Of a stretch of 64,000 nt of DNA, positions 5,353 to 18,517 are shown one piece after another. Made by a program: the position numbers and the translations under genes. Origin of the DNA: Shinella zoogloeoides. GTDB lineage: Bacteria; Pseudomonadota; Alphaproteobacteria; Rhizobiales; Rhizobiaceae. The stretch's first letter is position 1. Each line of letters starts with the position of its first letter. The notes beneath the pieces are model-generated. The model had not been told where the DNA came from. It saw nothing but the letters and a program-made list of their open reading frames with translations, and did not search any database. The DNA lies in NCBI RefSeq assembly GCF_003574625.1, contig NZ_QNUJ01000001.1:620001-684000 (forward strand), read 5' to 3'.

Positions 5353-6477
5353 ATGAGAACGCTGAAACTGGGTATGGTCGGCGGTGGGAACGGTGCGTTC
5401 TTCGGCGCCGCACACCGTGCCGCCGCCGCGATGACGGGACGCTTTTCGATGGTCGCGGGCGCCCTTTCGAGCGATCCGGTTCGCGCGCGGGAAAGCGGGC
5501 ACGATCTCGGTCTCGCCCCCGAGCGCTGCTATGACGATTTCGAGACGATGGCGAAGCGCGAGGCAAACCATGGCGGCATCGACCTCGTCGCCGTGGTGAC
5601 GCCGAACCACCTGCATGCGCCCGCCTGCCGCGCCTTCCTCGGCGCCGGCATCAACATTCTCTGCGACAAGCCGCTGACCGCCACGCTGGATGAGGCGCTC
5701 GCACTTCAAGCGGCAGCGGAGGGCAACCCCTCTCTTTTCGGTGTCGCCTACACCAATGCCGGCTTCGACATGGTGCGCGAAGCGCGTGCCATGGTGGCGG
5801 CCGGGGAAATCGGCACGGTGCGCCTGGTGCGCGTCGTCTTTCCGCAGGAATGGCTGGCCACTGCCACCGAGGCGACCGGCAACAAGCAGGCCGAATGGCG
5901 CACCGATCCGGCAAGAAGCGGCGCCGGCAGTCTCGGCGATATCGGCACCCACGCCTTCCATCTTGCAGAATTCATCACGGGCCTCACGGCGACTGCCCTT
6001 TCGGCCGAAGTCGATACCTTCGTTGCCGGCCGCCGCGTCGATGACAACGTCACGGCAAAGCTGCGCTTTGACGGCGGCGCCAAGGGGCTGCTCTGGGCAA
6101 GCCAGGTGGCGATCGGCGAGACCAACGGGCTCAGGATCGATGTGCATGGCGACAAGGGCTCGCTCGGCTGGACGGTCGAGGCGGCGAACCAACTGGCCTT
6201 CGCGCCGCTCGGCGGCCGGCGCATGGTGATCGACCGGGCCTCGCACGGAACGGCCTTCAAGGGAACGATGCCGCCCGGACATCCCCAGGGGTTCATCGAG
6301 GCGCTGGCGCGGCTCTATCTCGACATGGCCGACCAGATCGACGCGCGTCGCGACGGCCGCGCTCCGGCGGCGGACGCCCTGCTGCTGCCCGGTATTCGCG
6401 ATGGCGTGCGCGGCCTGCGTTTCGTCGATGCCGCCCTTCGCTCGGGCGCTGAAGACGGCCGCTGGACAGACATCTGA
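5353..6477 (+). CDS. Gfo/Idh/MocA family oxidoreductase (first of two)
   Basis: A 374-residue NAD(P)-dependent dehydrogenase of the glucose-fructose oxidoreductase / inositol dehydrogenase / rhizopine MocA family. The N-terminal Rossmann motif is GMVGGGNGAFFGAAHR, and the conserved active-site stretch CDKPLT (Asp in place of the common Glu of EKP) follows near residue 107. The C-terminal half is the usual alpha/beta dimerisation and substrate domain (GDIGTHAFHLAEF with His). These enzymes oxidise or reduce hydroxyls of sugars, cyclitols and derivatives. The operon encodes a second, different family member at 7570, so two oxidation steps or a C3-oxidation/reduction pair is plausible. Confidence 0.9.
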   Translation: MRTLKLGMVGGGNGAFFGAAHRAAAAMTGRFSMVAGALSSDPVRARESGHDLGLAPERCYDDFETMAKREANHGGIDLVAVVTPNHLHAPACRAFLGAGINILCDKPLTATLDEALALQAAAEGNPSLFGVAYTNAGFDMVREARAMVAAGEIGTVRLVRVVFPQEWLATATEATGNKQAEWRTDPARSGAGSLGDIGTHAFHLAEFITGLTATALSAEVDTFVAGRRVDDNVTAKLRFDGGAKGLLWASQVAIGETNGLRIDVHGDKGSLGWTVEAANQLAFAPLGGRRMVIDRASHGTAFKGTMPPGHPQGFIEALARLYLDMADQIDARRDGRAPAADALLLPGIRDGVRGLRFVDAALRSGAEDGRWTDI

Positions 6478-6489
6478 AGGGAACCGTTC

Positions 6490-7518
6490 ATGACCACACC
6501 TTTCCGTATCTTCATCATGGCACATCCGCGCCTCGTGGAAGATGTCTTCACGGACGACCATCTTGCGCGGCTCCGTGCGCTTGGCGACGTCGTCATCCAT
6601 GAGGGCGATGTGCTGACGGATGAGGATTTCGAACGCCACGTTGCGCCGGCCGATATCGCGATGGGCATTTTCGACATGCCGGCCGAGCGGCTGGCGCGGT
6701 GCCGAAGCCTCAAGGCCTTCGTCAACAGCGAGGGAAATTTCCTGCCCAATATCGACTACCGCCATTGCTTCGAGCATGGCATCCGCGTGCTGTCGGCGAG
6801 CCATGTCTTTGCCGAGCCGGTCGCCGAAATCGGGCTGGCCATGGCGATCGACCTCGGCCGCGGCATTACCGAGGCCGACCGGCTGATGCGAGAGGGCAGG
6901 GAAGAATACGGATTTGCGGCCAACCGCACGGCGCTGCCTTTGATGCGTGCCCGGGTCGGGCTGATCGGCTTCGGCGATCTTGCCCGCGCGCTGCTGCCCT
7001 TGCTGAAACCGTTCACCTCGACCATCGACGTCTACGATCCGTGGGTGCCGGCCCTCCTGGTCGAGCAGGCCGGCTGCCGGCCGGTGGCGCTGGAGACCGT
7101 GCTTGCCGAGAGCGATTTCGTCTTCGTGCTCGCCGGGGTGACCTCCGACAATGCCGGTTTCCTCGACAAGCATGCGTTCGAAACGATGAAACAGGGGGCG
7201 TGCCTGCTGCTTTTGAGCCGCGCTGCGGTCGTCAATTTTCCGGACATGCTGGAGGCGGCCGCTTCCGGCCGGATCCGGGTTGCGACCGATGTCTTTCCCG
7301 TCGAGCCGGTCGCGGCCGACGATCCGGTGCGCGGGACGCCGAACATCATCCTTTCGCCCCATCAGGCCGGCGCCATGGAATCGACGCTGAACGCCATGGG
7401 CGCGTCGATCACCGCCGATATCGAACTGATCGCCCGCGGTCTTCCGCCCGCCGTCTGCAAGGTGGCGCAGCCGGAGACCGCCATGCGCTTCCGCAGCATG
7501 CCTGTGTCGAAGAGCTGA
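6490..7518 (+). CDS. D-2-hydroxyacid dehydrogenase family protein
   Basis: A 342-residue NAD-dependent dehydrogenase of the phosphoglycerate/glyoxylate reductase family. The nucleotide motif is GLIGFGDLARALLPLL (about 157-172). The catalytic Arg lies in LLLLSRAAVV, the Glu region in ATDVFPVEP and the His in SPHQAGAM, so all three expected residues are present. The start lies 12 bases after the previous gene with AAGGGAAC upstream. In this operon it may act on a hydroxy- or keto-acid made from the imported sugar; that is inference. Many family members act on bulky 2-keto acids. Confidence 0.88.
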   Translation: MTTPFRIFIMAHPRLVEDVFTDDHLARLRALGDVVIHEGDVLTDEDFERHVAPADIAMGIFDMPAERLARCRSLKAFVNSEGNFLPNIDYRHCFEHGIRVLSASHVFAEPVAEIGLAMAIDLGRGITEADRLMREGREEYGFAANRTALPLMRARVGLIGFGDLARALLPLLKPFTSTIDVYDPWVPALLVEQAGCRPVALETVLAESDFVFVLAGVTSDNAGFLDKHAFETMKQGACLLLLSRAAVVNFPDMLEAAASGRIRVATDVFPVEPVAADDPVRGTPNIILSPHQAGAMESTLNAMGASITADIELIARGLPPAVCKVAQPETAMRFRSMPVSKS

Positions 7519-7569
7519 AGAATAAGGACCGGTCCTGAAAGCGCCGTCCACCATGGAAAGGACAATGAG

Positions 7570-8643
7570 ATGAATGAGGGCAAGCCGCTGCTGAAGGTCG
7601 GAATTCTCGGTTGCGGGCCGATCTCGCAGGCCGGCCATTTCGAAAGCGCCGTGAAAGCGCGCAATGCCGAGCTTTACGCCATCTGCGACGTCGCGGACGA
7701 CCTGCGCGCCCGCATGGCCGCGACCCATGCGCCGAAAAAGGCTTTCTCCGACTACGATGCGATGCTGGCCGACCCGGATGTCGATGCGGTCATCATCGCG
7801 ACGGCGGATGCCTTCCACGTCGCCGCCGCAGCCCGCGCGCTCGAGGCCGGCAAGCATGTGCTCTGTGAAAAGCCGCTCGGAATGACCGTCGAGGAGGTCG
7901 AGGGCCTGCGGCCCGTCGTCGAGAAGAGCGGCAAGGTCTTCCAGGTCGGCCATATGAAGCGCTACGACGCCGGCCTCCAGAGCGCCAGGAGCTTCATCGA
8001 TACGGAAATGGGCGAGATGCTCGCGCTGAAGGCCTGGTATTGCGATTCCACCCATCGCTATGCCGTCACCGACGCGGTGCAGCCCTACATGATCCGCAGC
8101 GCCAACGCGAAGAAGCCGTCGCGAAATCCGAAGGCCGATCTCGAGCAGTATTTCATGCTCGCCCATGGCAGCCACCTGCTGGATACCGCCCGCTATTTTG
8201 CCGGTCCCATCCTCGCGGTCGATGCGCGGCTGCGCCAGCGGTTCGGCGCATATTCCTGGTTCATCGACGTCGAGTTCGAAAATGGCGCCATGGGCCATCT
8301 GGATCTGACGGTTGCCGTGCGCATGGACTGGCACGAAGGCTTCCAGATCTACGGCGAGTACGGCAGCATTCTCGGCAAGACCTACAATCCCTGGCTGTTC
8401 AAGAGCAGCGAGGTGGACATCTTCAGCGAAAAGACCGGGGCGACCAGCCGCGTGCTGGGTGCGGACGGCCACTTCTACCGGCGCCAGCTGGAGGGGTTTG
8501 CGGATACGATTCTCGATGGCGGGCCGCTGACCGGCGCGGGCATCGATGACGGCATCGCCTCGGTGCGCGGCATGGCGGCGGTGATGCAGTCGGTTCGCGC
8601 AAAGGCGCCGGTCAAGCTCGCCGACGCGCATGGGAGCGTGTGA
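7570..8643 (+). CDS. Gfo/Idh/MocA family oxidoreductase (second)
   Basis: A 357-residue NAD(P)-dependent dehydrogenase. The Rossmann motif is GILGCGPISQAGHF (9-22), and the canonical CEKPLGMTVEEVE follows near residue 98, with Lys of EKP thought catalytic. The later KRYDAGLQSARSF and MLAHGSHLLDTARYF regions resemble inositol and 3-keto-sugar dehydrogenases. An AAGGACAATGAG ribosome site precedes the ATG. It is distinct from the paralogue at 5353, which has CDKP. The stop overlaps the next ATG (TGATG), so it is coupled to the isomerase. Confidence 0.9.
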   Translation: MNEGKPLLKVGILGCGPISQAGHFESAVKARNAELYAICDVADDLRARMAATHAPKKAFSDYDAMLADPDVDAVIIATADAFHVAAAARALEAGKHVLCEKPLGMTVEEVEGLRPVVEKSGKVFQVGHMKRYDAGLQSARSFIDTEMGEMLALKAWYCDSTHRYAVTDAVQPYMIRSANAKKPSRNPKADLEQYFMLAHGSHLLDTARYFAGPILAVDARLRQRFGAYSWFIDVEFENGAMGHLDLTVAVRMDWHEGFQIYGEYGSILGKTYNPWLFKSSEVDIFSEKTGATSRVLGADGHFYRRQLEGFADTILDGGPLTGAGIDDGIASVRGMAAVMQSVRAKAPVKLADAHGSV

Positions 8644-9482
8644 TGCGCGCCGGTATCTTCGCCAAGACCTTCGCAGGCACGACGCCGGATGTCGTGCTCG
8701 CCGCCGCGCGCGATGCCGGCTACGCGTCGGTGCAGTACAATTTCGCCTGCTCTGGCCTTGGGGCCTTGCCGGAGGCGATCCCGGACGCTGCCGTCGCGGC
8801 GATCCGTGAGGCATCGGAACGAACCGGTGTCGCCATCGCGGCGATCTCCGCAACCTACAACATGATCCACCCGGATATCGCCGTGCGGGAAGCCGGCCGG
8901 CGCAGCTTTGCGGCGATTGCCGCAGCGGCGCATGCGGCCGGTTCGACCCTTCTGACCGTCTGCACGGGAAGCCGGGATGCCGCCGACCAGTGGCGCGACC
9001 ATCCAGACAACCAGGGGGCCGAGGCCTGGCAGGACATGATCGCCGAGTTCGGCCATCTGCTCGCCATCGCGGAACGGCACGATATCTTCATCGGCGTCGA
9101 GCCGGAGCTCGCCAATGTCATCAACTCCGCCGCGAAGGCGCGGCGGCTGATCGAAACGATGGCGAGCGAGCGCATCCGCATCGTGCTGGATCCGGCCAAT
9201 CTCTTCGAGAACGAGGACGCTGAAACGCGCGGCCGCATCATCGACGCGGCTATCGACCTGCTGAAAGACCGGATCGCCATCGCGCACGCCAAGGATCGCA
9301 ACGCCGACAGCTCCTTCGCTACCGCGGGCAGGGGCGTCATCGACTATCCGCGCTACGTGGCCTCGCTGAAGCGGGCAGGCTTCGACGGCGATATGATCAC
9401 CCACGGGCTTTCGGCGGCAGAAGCGCCGGGCGTCGCCGCCTTCCTCGCGCCCCTCATCGCCCCGGAGGGTCGCAACGCATGA
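8643..9482 (+). CDS. Sugar phosphate isomerase/epimerase family (xylose-isomerase-like TIM barrel)
   Basis: A 279-residue AP-endonuclease-2-type TIM barrel, a family of metal-dependent isomerases, epimerases and dehydratases for sugars and cyclitols (IolE/IolI-like). Candidate metal ligands are Glu in GVEPEL, Asp in VLDPANLFE, His in AHAKDRN and a C-terminal acidic/His region. The ATG at 8643 overlaps the stop of the previous gene. A GTG three bases earlier is possible but adds only one residue. Together with two Gfo/Idh enzymes it suggests rearrangement of a keto-sugar or keto-inositol. Confidence 0.88.
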   Translation: MRAGIFAKTFAGTTPDVVLAAARDAGYASVQYNFACSGLGALPEAIPDAAVAAIREASERTGVAIAAISATYNMIHPDIAVREAGRRSFAAIAAAAHAAGSTLLTVCTGSRDAADQWRDHPDNQGAEAWQDMIAEFGHLLAIAERHDIFIGVEPELANVINSAAKARRLIETMASERIRIVLDPANLFENEDAETRGRIIDAAIDLLKDRIAIAHAKDRNADSSFATAGRGVIDYPRYVASLKRAGFDGDMITHGLSAAEAPGVAAFLAPLIAPEGRNA

Positions 9483-10282
9483 ATCCGATCCGCCATCCCG
9501 TCGAAGGCGCGAACCTCGCGGTCTACGAGGAGGGCGAGGGCATGCCCTTCGTCTTCCAGCATGGCCTTTGCGGGGATCAGGCCCAGCCGGGCCAGGTCTT
9601 TCCGGCCGCTGCCGGCTTCAGGCGCATCACCGTCGAATGCCGCGGCCACGGTGCCTCGGATGCGGGTTCCAAGGCGGCCTTTTCGATCGCCACCTTCGCC
9701 GACGACATTGCCGGCTATCTTGCGGCGCAAGGTGCCGGACGAGCCGTGGTGGGTGGAATCTCGATGGGGGCGGCGATCGCGCTGCGGCTTGCCGTCCGCC
9801 GGCCTGAACGGGTTCGGGCGCTCGTGATCGCGCGGCCCGCCTGGATTTGTGCCGCCAATCCGGCAAACATGGCGCCGAACCGCATTGCCGGTGAACTTCT
9901 CGACCGCTATCCGCCGCAGGAGGCGCGCCGGCAGTACGAGGCCTTGCCCCTGGCGGCAGAGCTGGAACGGGAAGCACCGGACAATCTTGCTTCGATCCGC
10001 GGCTTCTTCACGCGCGAGCCGATCGACGTTACCGCAGCGCTGCTCCGGGCAATCTCGATGGACGGCCCCGACGTCACCGAGGCGGAGGTCTCCGCCATTG
10101 CCGTGCCGACGCTCGTGATCGGCCATGGGCGCGACCTCGTTCATCCGCTTGGTCATGCCCGGTCGCTTGCCGGGATGATCCCGGGCGCGCGGCTGGTGGA
10201 GATCACGCCGAAGGCGGACGATGCCGACGCCTATCGTGCCGATTTCCGCGCCGCCCTGTCGGCCTTCCTCAAGGAGCTCTGA
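9479..10282 (+). CDS. Alpha/beta hydrolase
   Basis: A 267-residue alpha/beta-hydrolase-fold protein. The oxyanion region is FQHGLCGD near residue 27, the nucleophile elbow GGISMGAA supplies Ser near 97, and an acidic candidate is in GHGRDLVHP. At the usual place of the catalytic His near the C-terminus I read ITPKADDADAYRADF with no His, so either the His of LVHP substitutes or the triad is incomplete. It overlaps the isomerase by 4 bases (ATGA). It may cleave an ester or lactone formed in the pathway, or a C-C bond. Substrate unknown. Confidence 0.85.
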   Translation: MNPIRHPVEGANLAVYEEGEGMPFVFQHGLCGDQAQPGQVFPAAAGFRRITVECRGHGASDAGSKAAFSIATFADDIAGYLAAQGAGRAVVGGISMGAAIALRLAVRRPERVRALVIARPAWICAANPANMAPNRIAGELLDRYPPQEARRQYEALPLAAELEREAPDNLASIRGFFTREPIDVTAALLRAISMDGPDVTEAEVSAIAVPTLVIGHGRDLVHPLGHARSLAGMIPGARLVEITPKADDADAYRADFRAALSAFLKEL

Positions 10283-10283
10283 G

Positions 10284-10424
10284 ATGCGGCCGCCTTCCGA
10301 TTGGATTGAAACCTTGCCCGAGGACCGGCTGATGGCCGAGACCGTCGTCACGAGGTCGCCCGCCTTCGAGGCGGAGGGGCTGGCCTCGTCCGCAACCGGT
10401 GGAACGACAAGAGGCCTTGTATGA
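10284..10424 (+). pseudogene. Truncated start of a ribulose-phosphate 3-epimerase-like gene (46 codons)
   Basis: An ATG directly after the hydrolase stop opens 46 codons reading MRPPSDWIETLPEDRLMAET. This resembles the N-terminus of rhizobial ribulose-phosphate 3-epimerase-like proteins (pattern W-x3-LP-x-DRL-x-AE). After MAET the homology ends and the frame runs to TGA at 10422-10424, overlapping the next ATG at 10421. The rest of the barrel is missing, so an internal deletion is likely. It may still serve as a coupled leader for the ROK gene. The assignment rests on a short match from memory. Confidence 0.45.
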
Positions 10425-11419
10425 ACGACGATTTCACCATCGGCCTCGATCTCGGCGGCACACAGGTTCGCGCCGCGCTGGTGCGCGCCGGAAAGGTTTT
10501 TGCGCGCACGGCGGCGCGCACGGATATCAGTGGTCCGGAAGAGGTGATGCGCCAGTTCGGTGCGCTTGTCGCGGAGGTGTCGCGGGCGGCAGGCAGCGCC
10601 CCGGTCCGCGCGATCGGCATGTGCGCCCCGGGGCCGCTCGATACCGTGAGCGGCGTTATCGACCATATTCCGACCCTTCCCGGCTGGGAGCAATTCCCCC
10701 TGCGCGACCGCCTGTCGGAGCTTTTCGGCCTTCCGGCCATCGTCGAGAACGATGGCATCGCGGCCGCCTTCGGCGAATGGCAATACGGGGCTGCGCGCGG
10801 GCTGGACCACATGGTCTATGTCACGGTCAGCACGGGCATCGGCGGCGGTGTCGTTGTCGACGGCCGGCTGATGCACGGGGCGCGGGGCATGGGCGGCCAT
10901 GTCGGGCATTTCACGCTGGTTGCGGAAGGGCCTGTCTGCTCGTGCGGGCGCGTCGGTTGCTTCGAAGCGGTTGCCGCCGGTACGGCCTTCGGCAAGCGGG
11001 TCCGCGCGTCGGCAAGCGGAAACCCCGCCTCCTACCTTGGCAGGATGGCCGAGCACGAGACGCTCGAAGGCCGCCACGCTGTGGAGGGGGCGCGAGCAGG
11101 CGATGCCGCCTGCCTCGCCCTCGTCGCTGAAGAGGCTGATTGGCTCGGCTCCGGTTTTGCCAGCCTGCTGCATCTCTACAGCCCGCAGATGATCGTCATG
11201 GGCGGCGGCGTGTCGGCCGCTTTCGATTTGCTCGAACCAGGCATTCGTGCGCGCATCCGCCGCGATGCCATGGCCCCCTTTCGGGAGGTGCCGGTCGTAC
11301 CTGCAAGCCTTGGCGACGATGCCGGTCTCGTCGGGGTGGCCGATCTCGCGATTATCCGGCAGCGGGCATCGAATACATTACGTCGGCCGGCATGTTCGGA
11401 ATTCAGCGGCATGCCTTGA
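10421..11419 (+). CDS. ROK family sugar kinase (glucokinase-like)
   Basis: A 332-residue ROK protein without a DNA-binding domain, hence a probable sugar kinase. The ATP motif is IGLDLGGTQVRAALV (7-21), the catalytic region VENDGIAAAFGE carries the expected Asp, and the zinc motif is CSCGRVGCFEAVAAG. It presumably phosphorylates the imported or processed sugar in the cytoplasm. The ATG overlaps the stop of the 46-codon fragment upstream. The tail beyond VADLAIIRQ is longer than usual and ends where the sequence becomes degenerate, so the last ~20 residues may have been altered by a rearrangement. Confidence 0.88.
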   Translation: MNDDFTIGLDLGGTQVRAALVRAGKVFARTAARTDISGPEEVMRQFGALVAEVSRAAGSAPVRAIGMCAPGPLDTVSGVIDHIPTLPGWEQFPLRDRLSELFGLPAIVENDGIAAAFGEWQYGAARGLDHMVYVTVSTGIGGGVVVDGRLMHGARGMGGHVGHFTLVAEGPVCSCGRVGCFEAVAAGTAFGKRVRASASGNPASYLGRMAEHETLEGRHAVEGARAGDAACLALVAEEADWLGSGFASLLHLYSPQMIVMGGGVSAAFDLLEPGIRARIRRDAMAPFREVPVVPASLGDDAGLVGVADLAIIRQRASNTLRRPACSEFSGMP

Positions 11420-11525
11420 AGGTTATACCTTTCAAGCACTTGCCGCTCGAGCGCGCGCCGGCTCATATCCATTCAAGAACACGGACCTTTTGATCTCTCG
11501 ACCGAAGAGCCTTTCCTGCCAGTAG

Positions 11526-11888
11526 GCGCGACTCGGTCGAGAGGCGGTCCGGGCCTCGGCTGACGAACTATCGCCTACTAACCAGGTGATTGGTGCGAAT
11601 GCCGCGTTTCACGAAAAGATCGCGGCTGTTGGCCGAAATCCTCACTTTTCATGGCTTCTCTCTCGCCTTCTCACCAAGCAGCAACGGTTATGGCACTGGC
11701 ACCGCCCCAATTCGAGGACTGCTGAGCTGCCCATCGTCCTTGATGACCACTCCGCTATCATTACGGCAATCGTCGAGAAGAATGTCGAAGAAGCCGATCG
11801 CTTGAGCAGGGCTCGCGCGGAGCAAATTGCCGCGCGTATGTCGAGGGTGTTTGAGCAATTGTCGAATTCTGAAATCGAACTCCCTTGA
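11526..11888 (+). pseudogene. Remnant of a GntR/FCD regulator (C-terminal domain only)
   Basis: The frame is open from after TAG (11523-11525) to TGA (11886-11888). It reads ANAAFHEKIAAVGRNPHF, then DDHSAIITAIVEKNVEEADR, which is the FCD ligand-binding domain of FadR-type GntR regulators (FHxxIAxxxxNPxF and HxxIxxAIxxxxxxxA). The winged-helix half is absent and no ribosome site precedes it. It is therefore a decayed 3' fragment. A short GTG-started 100-residue product from 11586 is possible but unlikely to act as a regulator. Confidence 0.65.
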
Positions 11889-11945
11889 TTGAATATTTGC
11901 CCCCCGCAAGGATGGCCGCACGCAAGGGCAAGGAGATCATCGCCG

Positions 11946-12230
11946 TCCGCGGCGGCGGCGCTGAACGGCCCGCCGGACTTCGTGACGTCGGCCGTCGTCG
12001 AATATCGGGCACGCGGTGAACGCGTCAAAGGGGTTTGGCGCGATCCCCGGCCTTGAGGTTCGTGCGCCGGAGGGGGCTTCTACCTCTCCCCGAAATGCGC
12101 GCCTTTGGACTATCGCGGTCCTTCGTTCCCGGCGCAGGCCCGGCATAGCCTTTTCTATGCCGGGCCTGCGAGCGTGGTGCAGGATTTATCGAGGTTCGTC
12201 GCTGTGTCTCGAAGGTGATTTGAGGATCTG
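11946..12230 (+). pseudogene. Frameshifted remnant of a class I aminotransferase
   Basis: Three consecutive pieces in changing frames rebuild the C-terminal part of an aspartate-aminotransferase-like protein: AALNGPPDFVTSAVVEYRAR (from 11952), KGFGAIPGLEVRAPEGA (about 12028-12077), then FYLSPKCAPLDYRG (from 12078). These match the family pattern AALNGPQDFxxxxxxxYRRRR ... IPGLxxxxPEGAFYLxPxCA. At least two frameshifts and missing ends make it non-functional. It lies behind the GntR remnant, so both may be left from one lost regulator-aminotransferase locus. Confidence 0.6.
12133..12170. repeat. Perfect 16-bp inverted repeat (hairpin) with 6-nt loop
   Basis: CGCAGGCCCGGCATAG (12133-12148) and CTATGCCGGGCCTGCG (12155-12170) are exact reverse complements around CCTTTT. 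It lies inside the degenerate region, with no T-run on either side. It could be an old terminator or a dispersed palindromic element. Confidence 0.7.
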
Positions 12231-12252
12231 ACCTTTAGAGCGACGGATTCCT

Positions 12253-12636
12253 CTATTCGCTTGCGTAGCTTCCATCCGCCTTGTGCGTTTCGTTGCCGGA
12301 AAGAGGCGGCGTGAAGACGCAGACGAGCAGCAGGTCGCCTTTCGTGGCGCGCAGGATGTGCGGATCGTTTTCGTTGAGCGAATAGATCGTGCCCGGCTTG
12401 ATCGGGAACACTTCCCCGGTCACCTTATGCTCGACTTCGCCCTCACCCGAAATGCAGTAGTTGCTTTCGAAGTGGTTCTTGTAGTGAAGATGCAGTTCGG
12501 CGCCTTCGAGGACACGGGTTTCATGCACCGAGTGGCCCATGCCGTGCTCGCGTACGATCATGCGCTTGCTCTGCCAGCCCGGCCCGGAGACATCCCGTGC
12601 GGATCCTGCCATTTCCTGTGAGGTGACGACGATCAT
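12253..12636 (-). CDS. ectC: Ectoine synthase family protein (EctC-like), orphan
   Basis: A 127-residue cupin of the same length as EctC, which closes N-gamma-acetyl-diaminobutyrate to ectoine. The residues known to bind iron in EctC (Glu57, Tyr85, His93) all occur at the same numbers (HFE, GTIY, DPH), with typical blocks MIVR-x-HGMG-x-S-x-HET, HYKNHFESNYCISGEGE and CVFTPPLSGNE. No ectA or ectB lies nearby. Instead it is the last gene of a minus-strand operon with amidase, GntR regulator and ABC importer. Solitary EctC homologues are known in non-producers. It may cyclise an imported precursor, open a ring in reverse, or act on a related N-acyl diamine. AGGAG precedes the start. Confidence 0.88.
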   Translation of the reverse strand: MIVVTSQEMAGSARDVSGPGWQSKRMIVREHGMGHSVHETRVLEGAELHLHYKNHFESNYCISGEGEVEHKVTGEVFPIKPGTIYSLNENDPHILRATKGDLLLVCVFTPPLSGNETHKADGSYASE

Positions 12637-12654
12637 TTCAAACTCCTGGTTTTT

Positions 12655-13992
12655 TCAAAGGGGGTTTCGGATGGCTTTCGCAAGGACCGGTTCAAGCATC
12701 CCGGCGATGGCCAGGAGCTTGTCGTCGGCGCCGCGGGTGCCCGTCAGCATCATGCCGATGGGCAGGCCGCCGGCGGGCAGCGTGACGCTCGGCAGGTCGA
12801 GCCGGTTTGCGAATTCGGTGAGGGAAAAGGAACGGCTGTTCATCGCGAGATAGCGAGACTGCTCGTCAAGGTCGCCGGCGCGTGGCGGCATCATCGGCAC
12901 CGTCGGCAGCACGAACGCGCCGAAGCCCTCGATTTCCCGGTCGAACTGTTTCCGGCATGTGTCCAGCTCGACGAGCGCCCGGCGATATTCACCTTCGGGC
13001 GCCTCCGCCCCCTGCCTGAGGCGTGTCGCGATCAACGGGTCGTAGAGATGTTCCGCAGCCTTCAGGAGCGCCTCGTGGTACCTGTAGGCCTCATAGCCGA
13101 TGATCCGCCCCTCGACGGTGATCCGCGTCGCCGACTGCAGGCTCGGGAGTGGGATTTCCGTGATCTCCACGCCTTCATCCGCCAGGGCGTTCATGCAGCG
13201 CGTGAAGGTGTCGCGGACGTCCGCGTCGATGGTGGCTTCCTTGTAGAAGGCCGGGATGGCCAGACGAAACGGCGTGGGCTCCGGCTCGGAGATTTCCCCA
13301 TGCGCGAGGAGCGCATCGACGATCCGGCACAGGTCCGCCGAGCGGGTTATGAGGCCGGGCACATCGAAGGACGTCGACAGCCATTTCATGCCGTCGCTCG
13401 AATAGCGGCCACGGCTGGGCTTGAAGCCCACGACGCCGCAGAACGCCGCGGGGATACGGGCAGAGCCGCTGGTGTCCGAGCATACCGCGATATCGCAATA
13501 TCCCCGCGCAACGGCGACCGCCCCTCCGGAACTGGACCCTCCCGCCACCCGCTCTCCCGTCGCATCGAGCGGCGTGCGGGGCGTGCCGAAGGCCAAGTTC
13601 AGGCCAAGGGCGCCATAGGCGAATTCCGTCATGTTGGTCTGCGCGACAAGGGTCGCGCCGCAAGTGCGCAGTCGGGCGACCATGGGCGCCGTTTGCGTTG
13701 CCGCCGGTGAGCCCGCCAATGCTCTCGACGCGCAGCTGGTGGGCCACCCCTCGACGTCGAAACAGGCCTTCGCCGTCATCGTCAGGCCCGCGAGCGGCGG
13801 CAGCGAGGCCCCTTCCTGCCGAAGGCGTTCCCAATCGGCCAGCTCTTGGCCCGCGTCGGCGAAGCGTTCCGCAAGAAAAATCGCCTGGCCTTGCCAGGAG
13901 CGGGCCTGATAGTCCGCGATGGCAGCCGCAAATTTGGCGTGCGGGGAACGAGGGTCGGTCGGCGCGTTCGGCATGTCGGTCACGTTTCTCAT
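12655..13992 (-). CDS. Amidase (amidase signature family)
   Basis: A 445-residue amidase with the Ser-cisSer-Lys triad: Lys75 in TMTAKACFDV, the cis-Ser in GGSSSGGAVA (151-160) and nucleophile Ser177 in SDTSGSARIPAAFCG. It should hydrolyse a carboxamide or N-acyl bond in the cytoplasm. The start ATG (13992) lies next to the GntR stop; an internal ATG at 13974 is also possible. It sits between the regulator and the EctC-like gene, 18 bases before the latter. The pair may process an N-acylated or amide compound brought in by the operon's importer. This link to EctC chemistry is inference. Confidence 0.88.
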   Translation of the reverse strand: MRNVTDMPNAPTDPRSPHAKFAAAIADYQARSWQGQAIFLAERFADAGQELADWERLRQEGASLPPLAGLTMTAKACFDVEGWPTSCASRALAGSPAATQTAPMVARLRTCGATLVAQTNMTEFAYGALGLNLAFGTPRTPLDATGERVAGGSSSGGAVAVARGYCDIAVCSDTSGSARIPAAFCGVVGFKPSRGRYSSDGMKWLSTSFDVPGLITRSADLCRIVDALLAHGEISEPEPTPFRLAIPAFYKEATIDADVRDTFTRCMNALADEGVEITEIPLPSLQSATRITVEGRIIGYEAYRYHEALLKAAEHLYDPLIATRLRQGAEAPEGEYRRALVELDTCRKQFDREIEGFGAFVLPTVPMMPPRAGDLDEQSRYLAMNSRSFSLTEFANRLDLPSVTLPAGGLPIGMMLTGTRGADDKLLAIAGMLEPVLAKAIRNPL

Positions 13993-13993
13993 T

Positions 13994-14638
13994 CTACATC
14001 AGCGTCATCAGCATCGCCTCGGCATCGGCGAGATAGATCTCGAGGCGGTCGGCGGCGGTCTCGTATCGGCCCTCGGCCAGAAGTCCGTGGATTTCGGTTT
14101 CCCTCATCAGCCACGGTTCCTGGAATGCGCGCTCCTGCGCCCCGGTCACGAAGACGAGGCGCAACTGGGTGACGAGGAGCGAAAACATCTGGTCGAAGAT
14201 CGGGCTGCCATGAAGGGCGACGATCTCCTGATGGAAGCGCAGGCTCGTCGTTGCCCCGACCTGCCAGTCGGCCCGCTCGATGGCCCCCGTGCCTTCACGC
14301 GTGAGGTCCCCGAGCCGTTGCAGCCAGTCGGCCGGCACGGACTGTCGGCCGCGCAGCGCGCTCAGTTCGACGACGCGGCGCACGATGAAGATGTCCTTCA
14401 GCTCGGCCGCGGAAAGGCGCTTGACCCGAACGCTCTTGTTGCGCTCCTGCGACAGCAGCCCCTGCTGGCGAAGCAATTGCAGGGATTCCCGCAGCGTGTT
14501 GCGGGATACGTTATAGACGTCGATCAGCTCGGCCTCGATCAGGGCGGCGCCGCTCAGGATCCGTCCGCAAAGAATGCTGTTGCGGATTTCATTCGCAACC
14601 CGGATGAAAGCTGGTTCGTTTGGAGCGGTTTCGGTCAT
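13994..14638 (-). CDS. GntR family regulator with FCD domain
   Basis: A 214-residue FadR-type GntR regulator. The winged helix spans about 10-75 (VANEIRNSILCGRILSGAAL, then ISRNTLRESLQLLRQQGLL as VSRNTLRESL), followed by the all-helical FCD domain from about 85 (VRRVVELSALR ... RFHQEIVALHGSPIFDQMF). FCD domains bind small carboxylates, often through a metal. It lies inside the operon between the fused transporter and the amidase. The overlapping dyads at 17123-17150 before the first operon gene are likely operators, giving autoregulation by the transported substrate. Confidence 0.9.
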   Translation of the reverse strand: MTETAPNEPAFIRVANEIRNSILCGRILSGAALIEAELIDVYNVSRNTLRESLQLLRQQGLLSQERNKSVRVKRLSAAELKDIFIVRRVVELSALRGRQSVPADWLQRLGDLTREGTGAIERADWQVGATTSLRFHQEIVALHGSPIFDQMFSLLVTQLRLVFVTGAQERAFQEPWLMRETEIHGLLAEGRYETAADRLEIYLADAEAMLMTLM

Positions 14639-14646
14639 GTCGGATC

Positions 14647-16170
14647 TCAGTTTGTCAGGTTCTTCAAGAAGGTCCTGAGCTGAGGATACAGGCCCGCCTT
14701 GATGTTCGCGGGCGTATCGTCGCAGATCACCTTGCCCTGCTCCATAAACAAAATGCGATCGGACACATCGAAGGCGAAATTCATCTCGTGCGTGACGATC
14801 ACCATCGTGACGCCGTCGCCTGCCAGGGAACGGATGACGCCCAGGACCTCGTCCACGGTCTCCGGGTCGAGCGCGGAGGTGGGCTCGTCGAACAGGATGA
14901 TGCTCGGCGACATCATCAGGGCGCGCGCGATGGCAACGCGCTGCTGCTGGCCGCCCGAAAGCTGGTGAGGATATTTGCGGGCATGCGCGGCCATGCCGAC
15001 TTTCGCCAGATAGTGGAAGGCTTCGGCCTCAAGGTCGGCGCGCGTGCCGAGACCATGGTAGAGCGGGGCGAGCAGGACATTGTCGAGGATGGTGCGGTGG
15101 TTGAACAGGTTGAAGCTCTGGAAGACCATGCCGACATCGCGGATCAGCCGGAAATCCTCCTTGAACAGGTGGGCACCCGACGCGGACGCCCCGGCGGAGA
15201 TGAAGGGTTCGCCATGCAGGCGCACCGAGCCGCTATCCATGTGCTCCAGTCCGTTCAAGGTCCGGATGAAGGTGGTCTTGCCGGAACCGGAGCGCCCGAT
15301 GATAGAGATCACCTCGCCCGGCTGGACCGTCAGATCGACGCCCTTGAGAACCTGCAGGTCGCCGAAGGCCTTGTGGACGCCCTTCGCCTCCAGCGCCGGA
15401 ACGTCCGCCGGCTGGCGCCTGGAGGCCGGCCGGGCGGTGAAGCGCGCGATCTTCGCCGCGACTTCCCCTTCCGAGAGCGGCTGGGCCTTCTGTCCCAGCC
15501 GGTTCACGTCAGCCGATCGCTCGAGAAAGGTGATGCTGCGATCGAAGATCGTGACGATAAGGATGTAATAGAAGGCGACGGCCGTGAGCGTCTCGAGGAT
15601 CAGGAAGTTCTGGGTGTAGAGCCGCTGGCCGACAAGCAGGATTTCCGCAAGCGAGATGACGGAAACGAGCGAGGTCAGCTTCACGATCGTCACGAGCTCG
15701 TTCGCAAGGGCGGGAAGAGCGACGCGGATCGCCTGCGGAATGACGATCAGGCGCTGTATCCCGAAAAAGGAGAGCCCGAGCGCGCGGCCGGCCTCGACCT
15801 GGCCTTTCGGTATGGCGATGAGCCCGCCTCGATGGATCTCGGCCATATAGGCCGCCTCGCTGACGACGAGGGCGATGAAACCGGCCGTGAAGGCATTCGA
15901 CAGGACCGACCGGAGCGCGGGGAAGACCTGCGGCATGCTGTAGATGAAGATGAGCAGGACCAGCAGAGGCAGGCTTCTGAAGAACCAGATATAGGTTTGC
16001 GTCGCGCGGGCCAGCACCTTCCACCGGGATCTCTTGGCAAGAGCGAGAGCGAAGCCGACGACGGCGGCGACGAGCCAGCTCGCCAGACTCAGTTGCACGA
16101 CCGTCCAGGACGCCAGCCAGAAATCGGTATCGGCCAGAAGGCCAACGGTATAGTGCCAGTCGAAACCCAT
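14647..16170 (-). CDS. Fused polar amino-acid ABC transporter permease and ATPase
   Basis: A 507-residue fusion. Residues about 1-225 are a HisM/GlnP-type permease with five or so helices and the EAA loop [22 protein letters not shown] linker of about 35 residues leads to a GlnQ-type ATPase (about 260-505) with Walker [10 protein letters not shown], signature LSGGQQQR and Walker [14 protein letters not shown]. Most family 3 systems encode these as separate genes; fused versions are known but uncommon. It works with the binding protein at 16244. Substrate class: amino acids, opines or small zwitterions, compatible with an ectoine-like osmolyte. Confidence 0.92.
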
Positions 16171-16243
16171 GGGAAACTGCTCGAAAATAAGAGGGGGACG
16201 CCGGCCTCGCGGGCCGGCGTTTCGATACGCCTGGAAGACGGAT

Positions 16244-17104
16244 TTACTGCGCGGTGGACGTGACGCTCTCGATGTCCGCGTCGCTTACCGTCGGCATGCC
16301 ATATGCGTCGGCGAGAGCGGCATAGCTGCCGTCCTGGCGCATCTTCGAGAAGGCTTCGCTGACGGCGCCGTAGAGGTCCTTGTTCTGCGGGCTGACGGCG
16401 ACGCCGATCAGCACCGGATAGATGAGGTCCTTCGACGTCACCTCATAGTCACTCGGGAACTTCTTCAGGAGTTCGGCCGCCACGACATTGTCCATGAACT
16501 CGACATCGATGGAGCGGGAACGGAGCGCCTGCGTGACCTGGGCGTCCGTATCGAATTCGCGGGTCTCGATGGCGCCGAGGCCGTTCGCCGCGCAGTGCTC
16601 GTCCGAGAATTTCTTGAGTTTGGGCAGCCAGGATGCGCCCTGCATCGAGCCGACGACCTTGCCGCACAATTCGGCTTCCCCGGTAGGACGGAACGTCGCG
16701 TCCTTCAGCACCAGCAGCGAAGAGCCGGCCTTGAGATAGGGAATGAAGTTCAGGATCTTCTGCCGCTCCGGCGTGACGTAGAGGGCGGAGGCCACGACGT
16801 CGAAATGGTTGGCCCGGATACCCGTGATCAGGCTTGCGAAGCGGGTGTCGATGAACTCGGAGCCCAGCTCCAGGCGCTTGGAAAGGGCCTGCATGAATTC
16901 GACGTCGAAGCCCGCCGGCACGCCGTCCTTCAGATAGGCGAAGGGCGGATAGGTCAGGTCCGAACCGACGGAAAGCGTTCCCTCCTTGATCGTCGGAAGC
17001 GGCGCGGCCTGCGCGGGCTGCATCGTGGCGGACGCCAGCAGCAGGGACGCGGCCACGGTGCCGGCAGCGCATAGTCCGGAGAGAATTCGCGATGGATCGA
17101 GCAT
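16244..17104 (-). CDS. Family 3 periplasmic solute-binding protein
   Basis: A 286-residue amino-acid-type binding protein with an N-terminal export signal ending near QAQA (residue 34; MQPAQAAP). The mature part has the family landmarks [34 protein letters not shown] and the second-lobe pattern [15 protein letters not shown]. First gene of the minus-strand operon and therefore nearest the GntR-type operators at 17123-17150. The upstream ribosome site GGGAGG lies 7-8 bases before the ATG. The ligand cannot be read from sequence. Confidence 0.9.
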
Positions 17105-17122
17105 ATCAACCTCCCATATTGC

Positions 17123-17150
17123 TCAACAAGATTGTTGAACAGTTTTGTTC
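17123..17150 (-). promoter_or_regulatory. Overlapping GntR-type dyads upstream of the EctC operon
   Basis: TCAACAA-GA-TTGTTGA (17123-17138) overlaps GAACA-GTTT-TGTTC (17137-17150). Both begin within 50 bp of the binding-protein start. They are suitable sites for the operon's own FadR-type regulator. Confidence 0.55.
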
Positions 17151-17278
17151 ATCAATTTGCGAGAGTCAAGAGGGGATTTACCGAGCCAGGCTGTCCCCGA
17201 TCCTCCTTCCTTTCGTGAGGTATGGAGTCCGGGGGGCTACAGTGGATGTGCGTGCACGCGCTGGCGCAGTCTCTGCGA

Positions 17279-17314
17279 GGACCGCACTGCAGCGGCCCGC
17301 AATGAGTGCGGTCC
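17279..17314. terminator. Hairpin in the divergent region
   Basis: GGACCGCACT (17279-17288) pairs exactly with AGTGCGGTCC (17305-17314) around a 16-nt loop. No coding gene ends here, so it may insulate the two divergent transcription units or be a regulatory RNA structure. Confidence 0.5.
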
Positions 17315-17325
17315 GCCTATAGTTT

Positions 17326-17341
17326 CTGAAATATATTTCAG
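17326..17341. promoter_or_regulatory. Perfect 16-bp palindrome, putative SorC operator
   Basis: CTGAAATATATTTCAG is fully symmetric and lies 13 bp upstream of TTGACA (17355-17360) of the polyol operon. The operon encodes a SorC-family regulator at 21122, the natural candidate to bind here. Confidence 0.6.
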
Positions 17342-17488
17342 ATGATGAATTATATTGACATGCGTTTCATCTTCGCCTCTATTGCCCTTCATCGGACTTC
17401 GAGGAGGAAGTTCGGTTTCAACGCGATCTGCGGCGTCTTCGGGACGCCCTCGGGCTTTTGGGAGGGGCTTCGGCCTCGAGGAGGAAAC

Positions 17489-18517
17489 TTGCGCAAATTT
17501 ATCGGCTCGACCGCCATGGCGGTCCTTGCGGCAACGCTTTTTGCCGGCACGGCATCTGCGGAGACGGACAACCCGTTCCGCTGCAAGCCGGGCGAGAAAT
17601 ACGTCATGAACGTCATGGTTTCGGGCGTCGAATACTGGTTCCCGGTCTATGAAATGTTCAAGCAGGCGGGCCAGCAGCTCGGCTGCGAGACGGAATATAC
17701 CGGCACGCCGGAATATGACGTCAACAAGCAGATCGCCACCTTCGACCAGGCGCTGGCGCAGAACCCGGCCGGCATTCTCGTGCACCCGATGAACTCCGAT
17801 CCGTTCATCGAGCCGATCAATCGCGCCATCGATCAGGGCACGGCCGTCGTGACCTTCGCCGCAGACTCGCCGCTCTCCAAGCGCGTCTCGTTCATCACCT
17901 CGGACAATACTCGCGAAGGCACCTACGCGGCCGATGCGATCGCCGAAAAGATGGGCGGCAAGGGCGAATATGCGGTGCTCGAGAACCCGGGCCAGGACAA
18001 CCACGACAAGCGCATCGCCGCCTTCATCGCCCGCATGGAGGAGAAGTGGCCCGACATGAAGCTGGTCGGCCGCGCGGCCTCCAACCAGGATCCGACCAAG
18101 GCCTATCAGGGCCTGTCGAGCCTCATCCAGGCCAACCCGAACCTCGGCGCGGTCTTCATGCCGGAAGCCAACTCGGCGATCGGTGCGGCGCAGGCCAACA
18201 AGGAAGCCGGCGGCAAGGTCCTCGTCATGTGCGCCGACGTCAACGCCAATATTCTCGACATGATCAAGGCCGGCGAAGTCTTTGGCTCGATCAATCCGAA
18301 CCAGGGCATGCAGGGTTACATGGGCTTCATGCTGCTGTGGCTTGCCAAGCACCCGGAATTGATCGACCCGATGAACGATGCCAAGCGCTCGGGCTTCAAC
18401 CCGATGAGCATCCCGGTCGTCGACAACGGCCTGTCGATCGTCACGGCCGAAAATGCCGACGATTTCTACTGGGACAAGTACCTGAAGCGCCGTGGCACCA
18501 AGGGTATCGAGGAGTAA
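17489..18517 (+). CDS. Periplasmic sugar/polyol-binding protein of ABC transporter (RbsB type), TTG start
   Basis: A 342-residue type I binding protein. I choose the TTG at 17489 because GAGGAGG lies 4 bases upstream (17478-17484) and translation gives a clean signal peptide ([20 protein letters not shown], cleavage after ASA). The frame runs open upstream to an ATG at 17342, but that stretch is unlike protein. The mature region has [29 protein letters not shown] and [10 protein letters not shown] as in sugar-binding proteins. First gene of the polyol/ketose operon, followed by a strong stem-loop (18532-18557). Confidence 0.9.

Follow-up and report, generated by a model that had tools for sequence, protein, structure and literature searches.

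We report here a conserved partnership between an amidase-signature hydrolase and a homolog of the ectoine synthase EctC, which we found through a five-gene operon in a 64,000-nucleotide stretch of Shinella zoogloeoides DNA (the window; RefSeq assembly GCF_003574625.1, contig NZ_QNUJ01000001.1, positions 620,001 to 684,000). Besides these two proteins, the operon encodes a solute-binding protein, an ATP-binding cassette (ABC) importer with permease and ATPase fused in one polypeptide, and a GntR/FCD-family regulator (Table 1). The amidase-EctC partnership is real, we have not found it described, and it falls within the known but unexplained group of solitary EctC proteins, i.e., those encoded without the ectoine biosynthesis genes ectA and ectB. 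We tentatively favor the reading that the operon scavenges an ectoine-like cyclic amidine, with EctC opening the ring and the amidase cleaving the resulting amide.

Conservation of the amidase-EctC pair

We retrieved 61 EctC loci from named genomes by scanning genomes with seven aligned EctC rows and counted neighboring genes from tblastn matches. The amidase was present in 27 of these loci, none of which belongs to the six that are EctB-linked. For 25 of the 27, the distance from the amidase stop to the EctC start is −14 to 61 bp. The exceptions are a Brucella cytisi locus (L108, 5981-8374), with a gap of 188 bp, where regulator, amidase, and EctC each match in two separate pieces and the module looks broken, and L117, where the distance was taken from the wrong copy of two EctC genes and the amidase has an EctC neighbor on the same strand. 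The nearest named relative found, plasmid p1 of S. zoogloeoides Teo12, has an equal gene order, with an EctC 99% and an amidase 98% identical to those of the window; among the plasmid loci L051 to L056, five of six have the pair, the one without it being L052.

Three importer sets accompany the pair. The fused permease-ATPase with a HisJ-like solute-binding protein is found in Shinella, Brucella, Burkholderia, Achromobacter, Bordetella, and other Alcaligenaceae; in Rhizobium, Kaistia, Pseudomonas, and Neorhizobium, the pair stands with EhuBCDA-like genes and a MocR regulator; and in Caballeronia, it stands with a branched-chain-type solute-binding protein and MocR. In Komagataeibacter (L060), the pair follows an aminotransferase gene. 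A further sample came from a PF06339 search of 397 genomes of the order, with matches in 58, of which 20 places were fetched as longer stretches (19 new relative to the earlier loci and one, L163, a longer stretch of L026). By tblastn, a close amidase lies beside EctC in three of the 20 (L163, L164, and L166) and distant amidases (27 to 29%) lie within the stretch in two (L167 and L170). In L163, the order is reversed, with EctC followed by the amidase at a 4-bp overlap inside a same-strand run of genes of unrelated families; in L164 (753-7381), the amidase precedes EctC, again with a 4-bp overlap, and urease genes (UreC-like, UreF, and HupE/UreJ) lie on the other strand. No importer genes adjoin the pair in either. 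Thus, from three importer sets, two importer-less loci, and one reversed order, the smallest unit conserved is the amidase-EctC pair, which many solitary EctC genes lack.

An earlier note on this DNA had observed that EctC is coupled to the amidase, regulator, and importer. This is borne out by the tight five-gene operon and by the recurrence of the gene set across Alpha- and Betaproteobacteria, which is more than chance. The note also named two findings that would refute its reading, ectAB elsewhere in the genome and a neighborhood not conserved in relatives, and neither was seen (for ectAB, see below). Of the five-gene block, the amidase-EctC pair is the conserved part, and the importer and regulator vary by lineage. 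Within Shinella, EctC is present in 4 of 21 genomes and the amidase (E value of 1e-60 or better) in 3, all among those four; the chance of three falling inside a set of four of 21 is 4/1330 if kinship is ignored, two of the three being one species. The fourth EctC-bearing Shinella (G445) is without the amidase.

A DUF1989 gene is a recurrent third partner. Of the 22 loci (window included) where we saw the fused importer, 19 have it close to EctC, and the three that do not are all from Shinella (the window, L051, and L059); L072, outside the 22, also has DUF1989, on a contig that stops short of the importer. In two Alcaligenaceae and two Bordetella loci, the gene comes after EctC in the same orientation, and in Burkholderia, Achromobacter, and Brucella, it is encoded on the opposite strand; this variation in strand and placement between lineages points to an association kept through rearrangement. 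The genome of the window has one DUF1989 gene, on contig C24, 81% identical to that of Brucella tritici.

A solitary EctC in a host with ectoine-degrading genes

We searched the whole assembly (5.38 Mb, 27 contigs, 99.97% complete; a Shinella near S. zoogloeoides) and found a single copy of EctC, no EctA over the cutoff (best match, 21 bits versus 120.6), and no EctB over the cutoff (best match, 237.8 bits versus 552.2). Thus, the lack of ectA and ectB, which the earlier note reported for the window together with a call for the genome search made here, extends to the whole assembly. The EctC of the window is solitary, being encoded in a genome with neither ectA nor ectB over the cutoff, and we rejected ectoine synthesis as the role of the operon on the same ground. 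Contig C21 encodes EhuR, EhuA, EhuB, EhuC, EhuD, EutB, EutD, and EutE, each over its NCBIfam cutoff; the over-cutoff matches to EutD/DoeA and EutE/DoeB are on this contig and not within the operon. A neighbor of these ehu/eut genes, the protein at 10125-11174 of L057, matched no family at the threshold used. The host thus lacks the known ectoine-making route and has the main genes of the known ectoine-eating route. Since ehuABCD, eutB, eutD, eutE, and ehuR lie elsewhere in the genome, ectoine is not the obvious substrate of the operon, and we rejected the operon as the main means of ectoine catabolism in this host.

Nor does the module track either ectoine pathway in other genomes. Among the 27 amidase-linked genomes, all of unstated completeness, ectA is over the cutoff in 8 (L064, L066, L075 to L078, L080, and L081), eutE is over the cutoff in 8 others (L058, L059, L065, L069, L070, L096, L100, and L108), and 11 have neither; the module depends on neither gene. 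With the ehu and eut genes elsewhere in the host, this makes ectoine itself, which the earlier note had proposed for a growth test, a poor candidate. The same counts bear on a second ectoine route, in which EctC working in reverse would give N-gamma-acetyl-diaminobutyrate and the amidase would convert this to diaminobutyrate and acetate, in place of EutD and EutE. EhuABCD-like importers and MocR accompany the pair in four genera (see above), and 19 of the 27 genomes have no eutE over the cutoff (eutD was not searched there). Nevertheless, we consider such a route improbable. The window's genome already has ehuABCD, eutB, eutD, and eutE, as 8 of the 27 pair-bearing genomes have eutE; the 8 with ectA would run a futile cycle; and the window importer falls under the Ehu NCBIfam cutoffs (EhuA ATPase, 246.5 versus 345.4 bits; EhuB solute-binding protein, 50.4 versus 190.9). 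Moreover, the conversion by EctC of its substrate to ectoine is called practically irreversible where PMC6344544 discusses that reaction.

Residues, phylogeny, and selection of EctC

The EctC of the window matches PF06339 over its whole length and NF009806 at 167.3 bits (cutoff, 128), which agrees with the earlier description of an intact homolog carrying Glu57, Tyr85, and His93. These metal ligands are invariant in all compared rows, i.e., 36/36 amidase-linked (a set that includes duplicate fetches of the window and two relatives), 29/29 EctB-linked, and 37/37 other rows; W21, S23, R25, T40, Y52, and F108 are also kept in the window protein. The EctB-linked rows come mostly from the PF06339 family search of the order genomes. 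At position 59, all 36 amidase-linked rows have Asn, whereas all 29 EctB-linked rows and both solved synthases have Val; N59 is enriched by selection in the 61-locus retrieval, one pattern of which holds E[TSA]NYC. By strand alternation, residue 59, two after Glu57, should face the barrel as Glu57 does. At position 38, the window EctC has His, and Asn38 is counted among the conserved residues of true synthases in the relevant part of PMC6344544. His38 as a specificity switch was ruled out, since this residue also occupies the position in all 29 EctB-linked rows and in the solved S. alaskensis synthase.

In a tree of 109 rows, 32 amidase-linked rows fall in a 40-row group that holds the window (support, 93/80), with the amidase-linked row L026 outside it, and the EctB-linked rows fall in a separate 34-row group (96/83) that also contains L151 and L161. 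A further group of seven rows (L153, L154, L155, L157, L159, L160, and L162; 100/99) has six members near likely biosynthetic genes (see below). The tree rests on 132 columns, with long branches flagged and deep forks weak. The pairwise ratio of nonsynonymous to synonymous substitution rates (dN/dS) of EctC is 0.03 to 0.11 in the eight computable of nine pairs (one was saturated, and dS exceeds 1 in five), and that of the amidase is 0.26 to 0.40, the upper value coming from two sequences 98% identical; several of the pairs approach saturation at synonymous sites. EctC is under purifying selection. Accordingly, we rejected the idea that it is a degenerating remnant of an ectoine pathway since lost, which is raised for solitary EctC in passages of PMC5924519 and PMC3979721: given these ratios between species, the pairing conserved across families, and the tree place apart from ectABC enzymes, it is scarcely credible.

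A candidate pathway of uptake, ring opening, and amide cleavage

In the scheme that we tentatively favor, the binding protein and the fused importer, to judge by their families, would take up a zwitterionic, carboxylate-bearing cyclic amidine. EctC, a metal cupin, would then add water to the ring C=N bond and so run the synthase reaction backward, to an N-acylated amino acid amide, and the amidase, as its family suggests, would hydrolyze this ring-opened amide to an amine and an acid. The GntR/FCD protein would probably repress the operon until substrate or product appears, and in many relatives the DUF1989 protein would join in. EctC interconverts a cyclic amidine and an N-acylated diamino acid. 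For ectoine, the equilibrium lies almost wholly on the ring side, and side activities of EctC include hydrolysis of ring-size variants of ectoine as well as glutamine/ADPC and homoectoine reactions, as set out in the pertinent sections of PMC6344544 and PMC4795551. Were ring opening unfavorable here too, the amidase would have to drain the product, thereby pulling the EctC reaction, which would explain why the pair is kept with tiny gaps or overlaps. The amidase would be useful only on the open form, and this, together with the catabolic-looking importer and regulators, argues for the order of import, ring opening, and amide cleavage, which would also account for why the two genes sit so close, why importer and regulator change, and why ectAB is lacking.

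The order put forward in the earlier note, in which the amidase trims and EctC acts afterwards, found no support in the data, and we think opening by EctC followed by amidase cleavage more likely. Its preference for salvage or degradation over stress synthesis stands insofar as uptake plus hydrolysis fits the operon better than osmotic synthesis, and in the Shinella host, the substrate is probably not ectoine itself. The direction of the EctC reaction, the order of the steps, and the substrate are our reading from sequence of gene content, conservation, and selection that were directly observed. It is possible, and we advance it with reserve, that this EctC branch consists of dedicated cyclic-amidine hydrolases that act with a partner amidase, and often a DUF1989 protein, in an undescribed catabolic pathway for ectoine-like compounds or cyclic guanidine amino acids. 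If so, many solitary EctC proteins would share one function.

In the amidase, K75, S153, and S177, which we take from the spacing usual in the family to be the Lys-Ser-Ser catalytic triad, are invariant in five aligned members. Its best PDB sequence matches are a probable amidase (2dc0) and an allophanate hydrolase (4gyr); it scores 189 bits against the allophanate hydrolase NCBIfam profile, under the cutoff of 511.05, and also matches the GatA profile under the cutoff. These two subthreshold matches and the close pairing with EctC would suit an ammonia coupling, in which a GatA-related amidase supplies ammonia or an amine from which EctC forms an amidine. This appears very improbable, as the importer and regulator context looks catabolic and we know of no precedent for EctC using free ammonia.

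The fused importer has an N-terminal permease (about residues 38 to 219) and a C-terminal ATPase (about residues 275 to 432), a fusion that recurs in relatives of other species at 58 to 75% identity; regulator relatives near equivalent operons are 34 to 75% identical. The solute-binding protein most closely resembles those for arginine, histidine, lysine/ornithine, and glutamine: its best PDB sequence match is a cationic amino acid binding protein (2m8c; E = 2e-24), and a fold search with its model (mean predicted local distance difference test score, 76.6) returned ArgBP, TTC0807, LAO, HisJ, and GlnBP among the first 50. All 10 aligned rows share D49, Y52, Y109, R114, S158, W159, and D205. 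Of these, R114 and D205 correspond in the alignment to the HisJ ligand contacts Arg77 and Asp161, and this alignment and invariance make a zwitterionic, amino-acid-like ligand likely. The model and PDB matches indicate nothing narrower than that, and we abandoned naming the substrate from this protein. Y109 aligns with a serine of HisJ; Tyr is found at this position, within an ASDLY motif, in the EhuB-like binding proteins of the other importer type as well, and two standard EhuB proteins have Phe and Ala, a weak hint that the fused and EhuB-like importers may carry a similar compound.

The opposite direction, an anabolic salvage in which a plant or neighbor supplies an N-acylated or amide precursor, which is imported and trimmed by the amidase before EctC closes the ring to make an ectoine-like solute (the Pseudomonas syringae model), appears unlikely. 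GntR/FCD and MocR regulators with nutrient-type importers are typical of catabolic operons, and such a salvage would be needless in the 8 of 27 amidase-linked genomes with ectA over the cutoff. Further, feeding of the direct precursor gave no ectoine in experiments described in parts of PMC5924519 and PMC3979721. In its favor, the same parts of these papers describe ectoine formation by a solitary EctC in an ectC mutant (only partially active according to one) and in the presence of plant leaves. The window EctC also keeps the metal and most ligand residues of true synthases, and related solitary EctC genes adjoin apparent biosynthetic genes.

Several observations weigh against the scavenging scheme. 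The published ligand-binding residues of ectoine synthase are all kept in the window EctC except position 38, and on these residues it may still cyclise; in the related solitary EctC proteins beside apparent biosynthetic genes, ring closure is likelier. N59 also occurs in 36 of the 37 rows with neither an amidase nor an EctB neighbor and is thus a mark of the solitary branch, not of amidase linkage. Among the 61 loci, 28 have neither amidase nor EctB, several of them on short contigs; tblastn detected no amidase in 15 of the 20 order-sample stretches; and 8 of the 40 rows in the window's tree group have no amidase found in the locus. These eight include L052 (6244-9381) and L061, both from Shinella, with an EctC 82% identical; in L052, EctC directly follows an aconitase gene, a different context in a close relative. 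DUF1989 is absent from the nine EhuBCDA-type and branched-chain-type loci and from L060. In Shinella, moreover, it is present in 21/21 genomes versus EctC in 4/21, so that there is no sign of a special partner there, and the idea that the Shinella gene is a displaced sixth component is weakened.

Comparison with known systems

The window EctC resembles the ectoine synthases (PF06339; 5onn and 5bxx) in family, length, metal ligands, and the listed ligand residues; it differs in having N59 instead of V59, a separate tree group, an amidase/importer operon, and no ectA or ectB over the cutoff. It shares the absence of ectAB with the solitary EctC of Pseudomonas syringae B728a and of groups 2 and 3 of Czech et al. 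2018, and differs from the solitary proteins in print by its pairing with an amidase. In the published census, 145 of 582 EctC genes are solitary, as stated in the part of PMC5924519 that gives the counts; the word "amidase" occurs 0 times in that paper, and where PMC5924519, PMC6344544, and PMC3979721 take up the function of solitary EctC, they leave it unresolved. We found no report of an EctC-amidase operon in titles and abstracts of the open-licence literature; PMC8719888 and PMC9281055 hold both words, for unrelated genes.

The ehuABCD-eut cluster with EnuR/EhuR is alike in logic (import, ring opening, deacylation, and a substrate-responsive regulator), and its EhuBCDA-like and MocR genes accompany the pair in some relatives; the window, however, has EctC for the M24-type hydrolase EutD and the amidase for the deacylase EutE. 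With the guanidine carboxylase pathway, which comprises a carboxyguanidine deiminase of DUF1989 and an allophanate hydrolase, the common points are DUF1989 and an amidase of the same superfamily near EctC in relatives. In contrast to that pathway, two scanned DUF1989 members score 46.4 and 61.6 bits against UAAP2, far under its cutoff of 284.7, and the amidase is under the allophanate hydrolase cutoff. To our knowledge, EctC has no place in the guanidine carboxylase pathway. The membership of carboxyguanidine deiminase in the DUF1989 family is taken from the portion of PMC11271267 that describes the enzyme. The tie of one EctC branch to an amidase makes the solitary EctC question testable with two small proteins and a few cyclic amidines. 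EctC by itself does not indicate ectoine production, and the operon hints at natural cyclic amidines on which soil bacteria may feed.

Structure of the operon

The five genes, their families, strand, and coordinates (12253-17104) are as the earlier note placed them.

Table 1. Genes of the operon, in order of transcription, and an adjoining repeat in the window
Feature	Positions	Strand	Evidence
SBP_bac_3 solute-binding protein, polar amino acid type (gene 1)	16244-17104	-	PF00497, 107.5 bits
Fused ABC importer (permease + ATPase)	14647-16170	-	PF00528, 75 bits, and PF00005, 113.7 bits, in one frame
GntR/FCD-family regulator	13994-14638	-	PF00392 and PF07729
Amidase-signature hydrolase	12655-13992	-	PF01425, 245 bits (cutoff, 27)
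EctC homolog, solitary	12253-12636	-	PF06339, 175.3 bits (cutoff, 27), residues 1-126
Perfect inverted repeat, 15 bp, 6-base loop, no T-run	12134-12169		By eye; 83 bp past the EctC stop

From the coordinates, the intergenic gaps in transcription order are 73, 8, 1, and 18 bp, and gaps this small make a single transcript for all five genes likely. The inverted repeat is possibly the transcript end; the terminator scan did not report it, and the promoter and terminator scans gave counts inside the range of shuffles. Adjoining the operon on the plus strand (11586-11888) is a 100-codon FCD-domain fragment without the GntR DNA-binding part, which is probably the remnant of another regulator.

Other contexts of solitary EctC

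Solitary EctC genes were also seen in other settings. In six plasmid records (L153, L154, L157, L159, L160, and L162; EctC at 6001), the neighbors are a polyketide or nonribosomal synthetase, an adenylate-forming enzyme, a lysine 2,3-aminomutase, and ketosynthase/AMP-binding/acyl carrier protein or halogenase genes, and EctC may there be a ring-closing enzyme of natural products. Sinorhizobium meliloti plasmid pCpl (L187) has two solitary EctC genes (2612-2998 and, for the second, within 10001-17557); downstream of the second, in the same orientation, are five ABC importer genes and an annotated amidase only 27% identical to that of the window, possibly an independent EctC-importer-amidase set. 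Back-to-back EctC-like stretches, mostly within one frame of about 260 to 400 codons, are apparent EctC tandem fusions (G247, G038, G079, G325, G037, G146, G173, G195, and G314; L180 and L182).

Individual neighbors include a 45% EutD-like protein (8273-9436) beside a solitary EctC (7009-7377) in L168 and an M24/creatinase-type protein after EctC in Kaistia (L107, 8538-9692). In L094, a methyltetrahydrofolate:corrinoid methyltransferase-like gene (6843-7994; PRK07535, 394.8 bits) immediately precedes EctC, and the gene before EctC in L097 (6832-7983) clusters with it. In Methylocapsa (L062), whose EctC is 75% identical and whose locus has no amidase, a PF04199 "cyclase" follows EctC and a flavodoxin-like protein precedes it (genes at 8472-9461 and 7247-7879); arylformamidases are among the members of PF04199.

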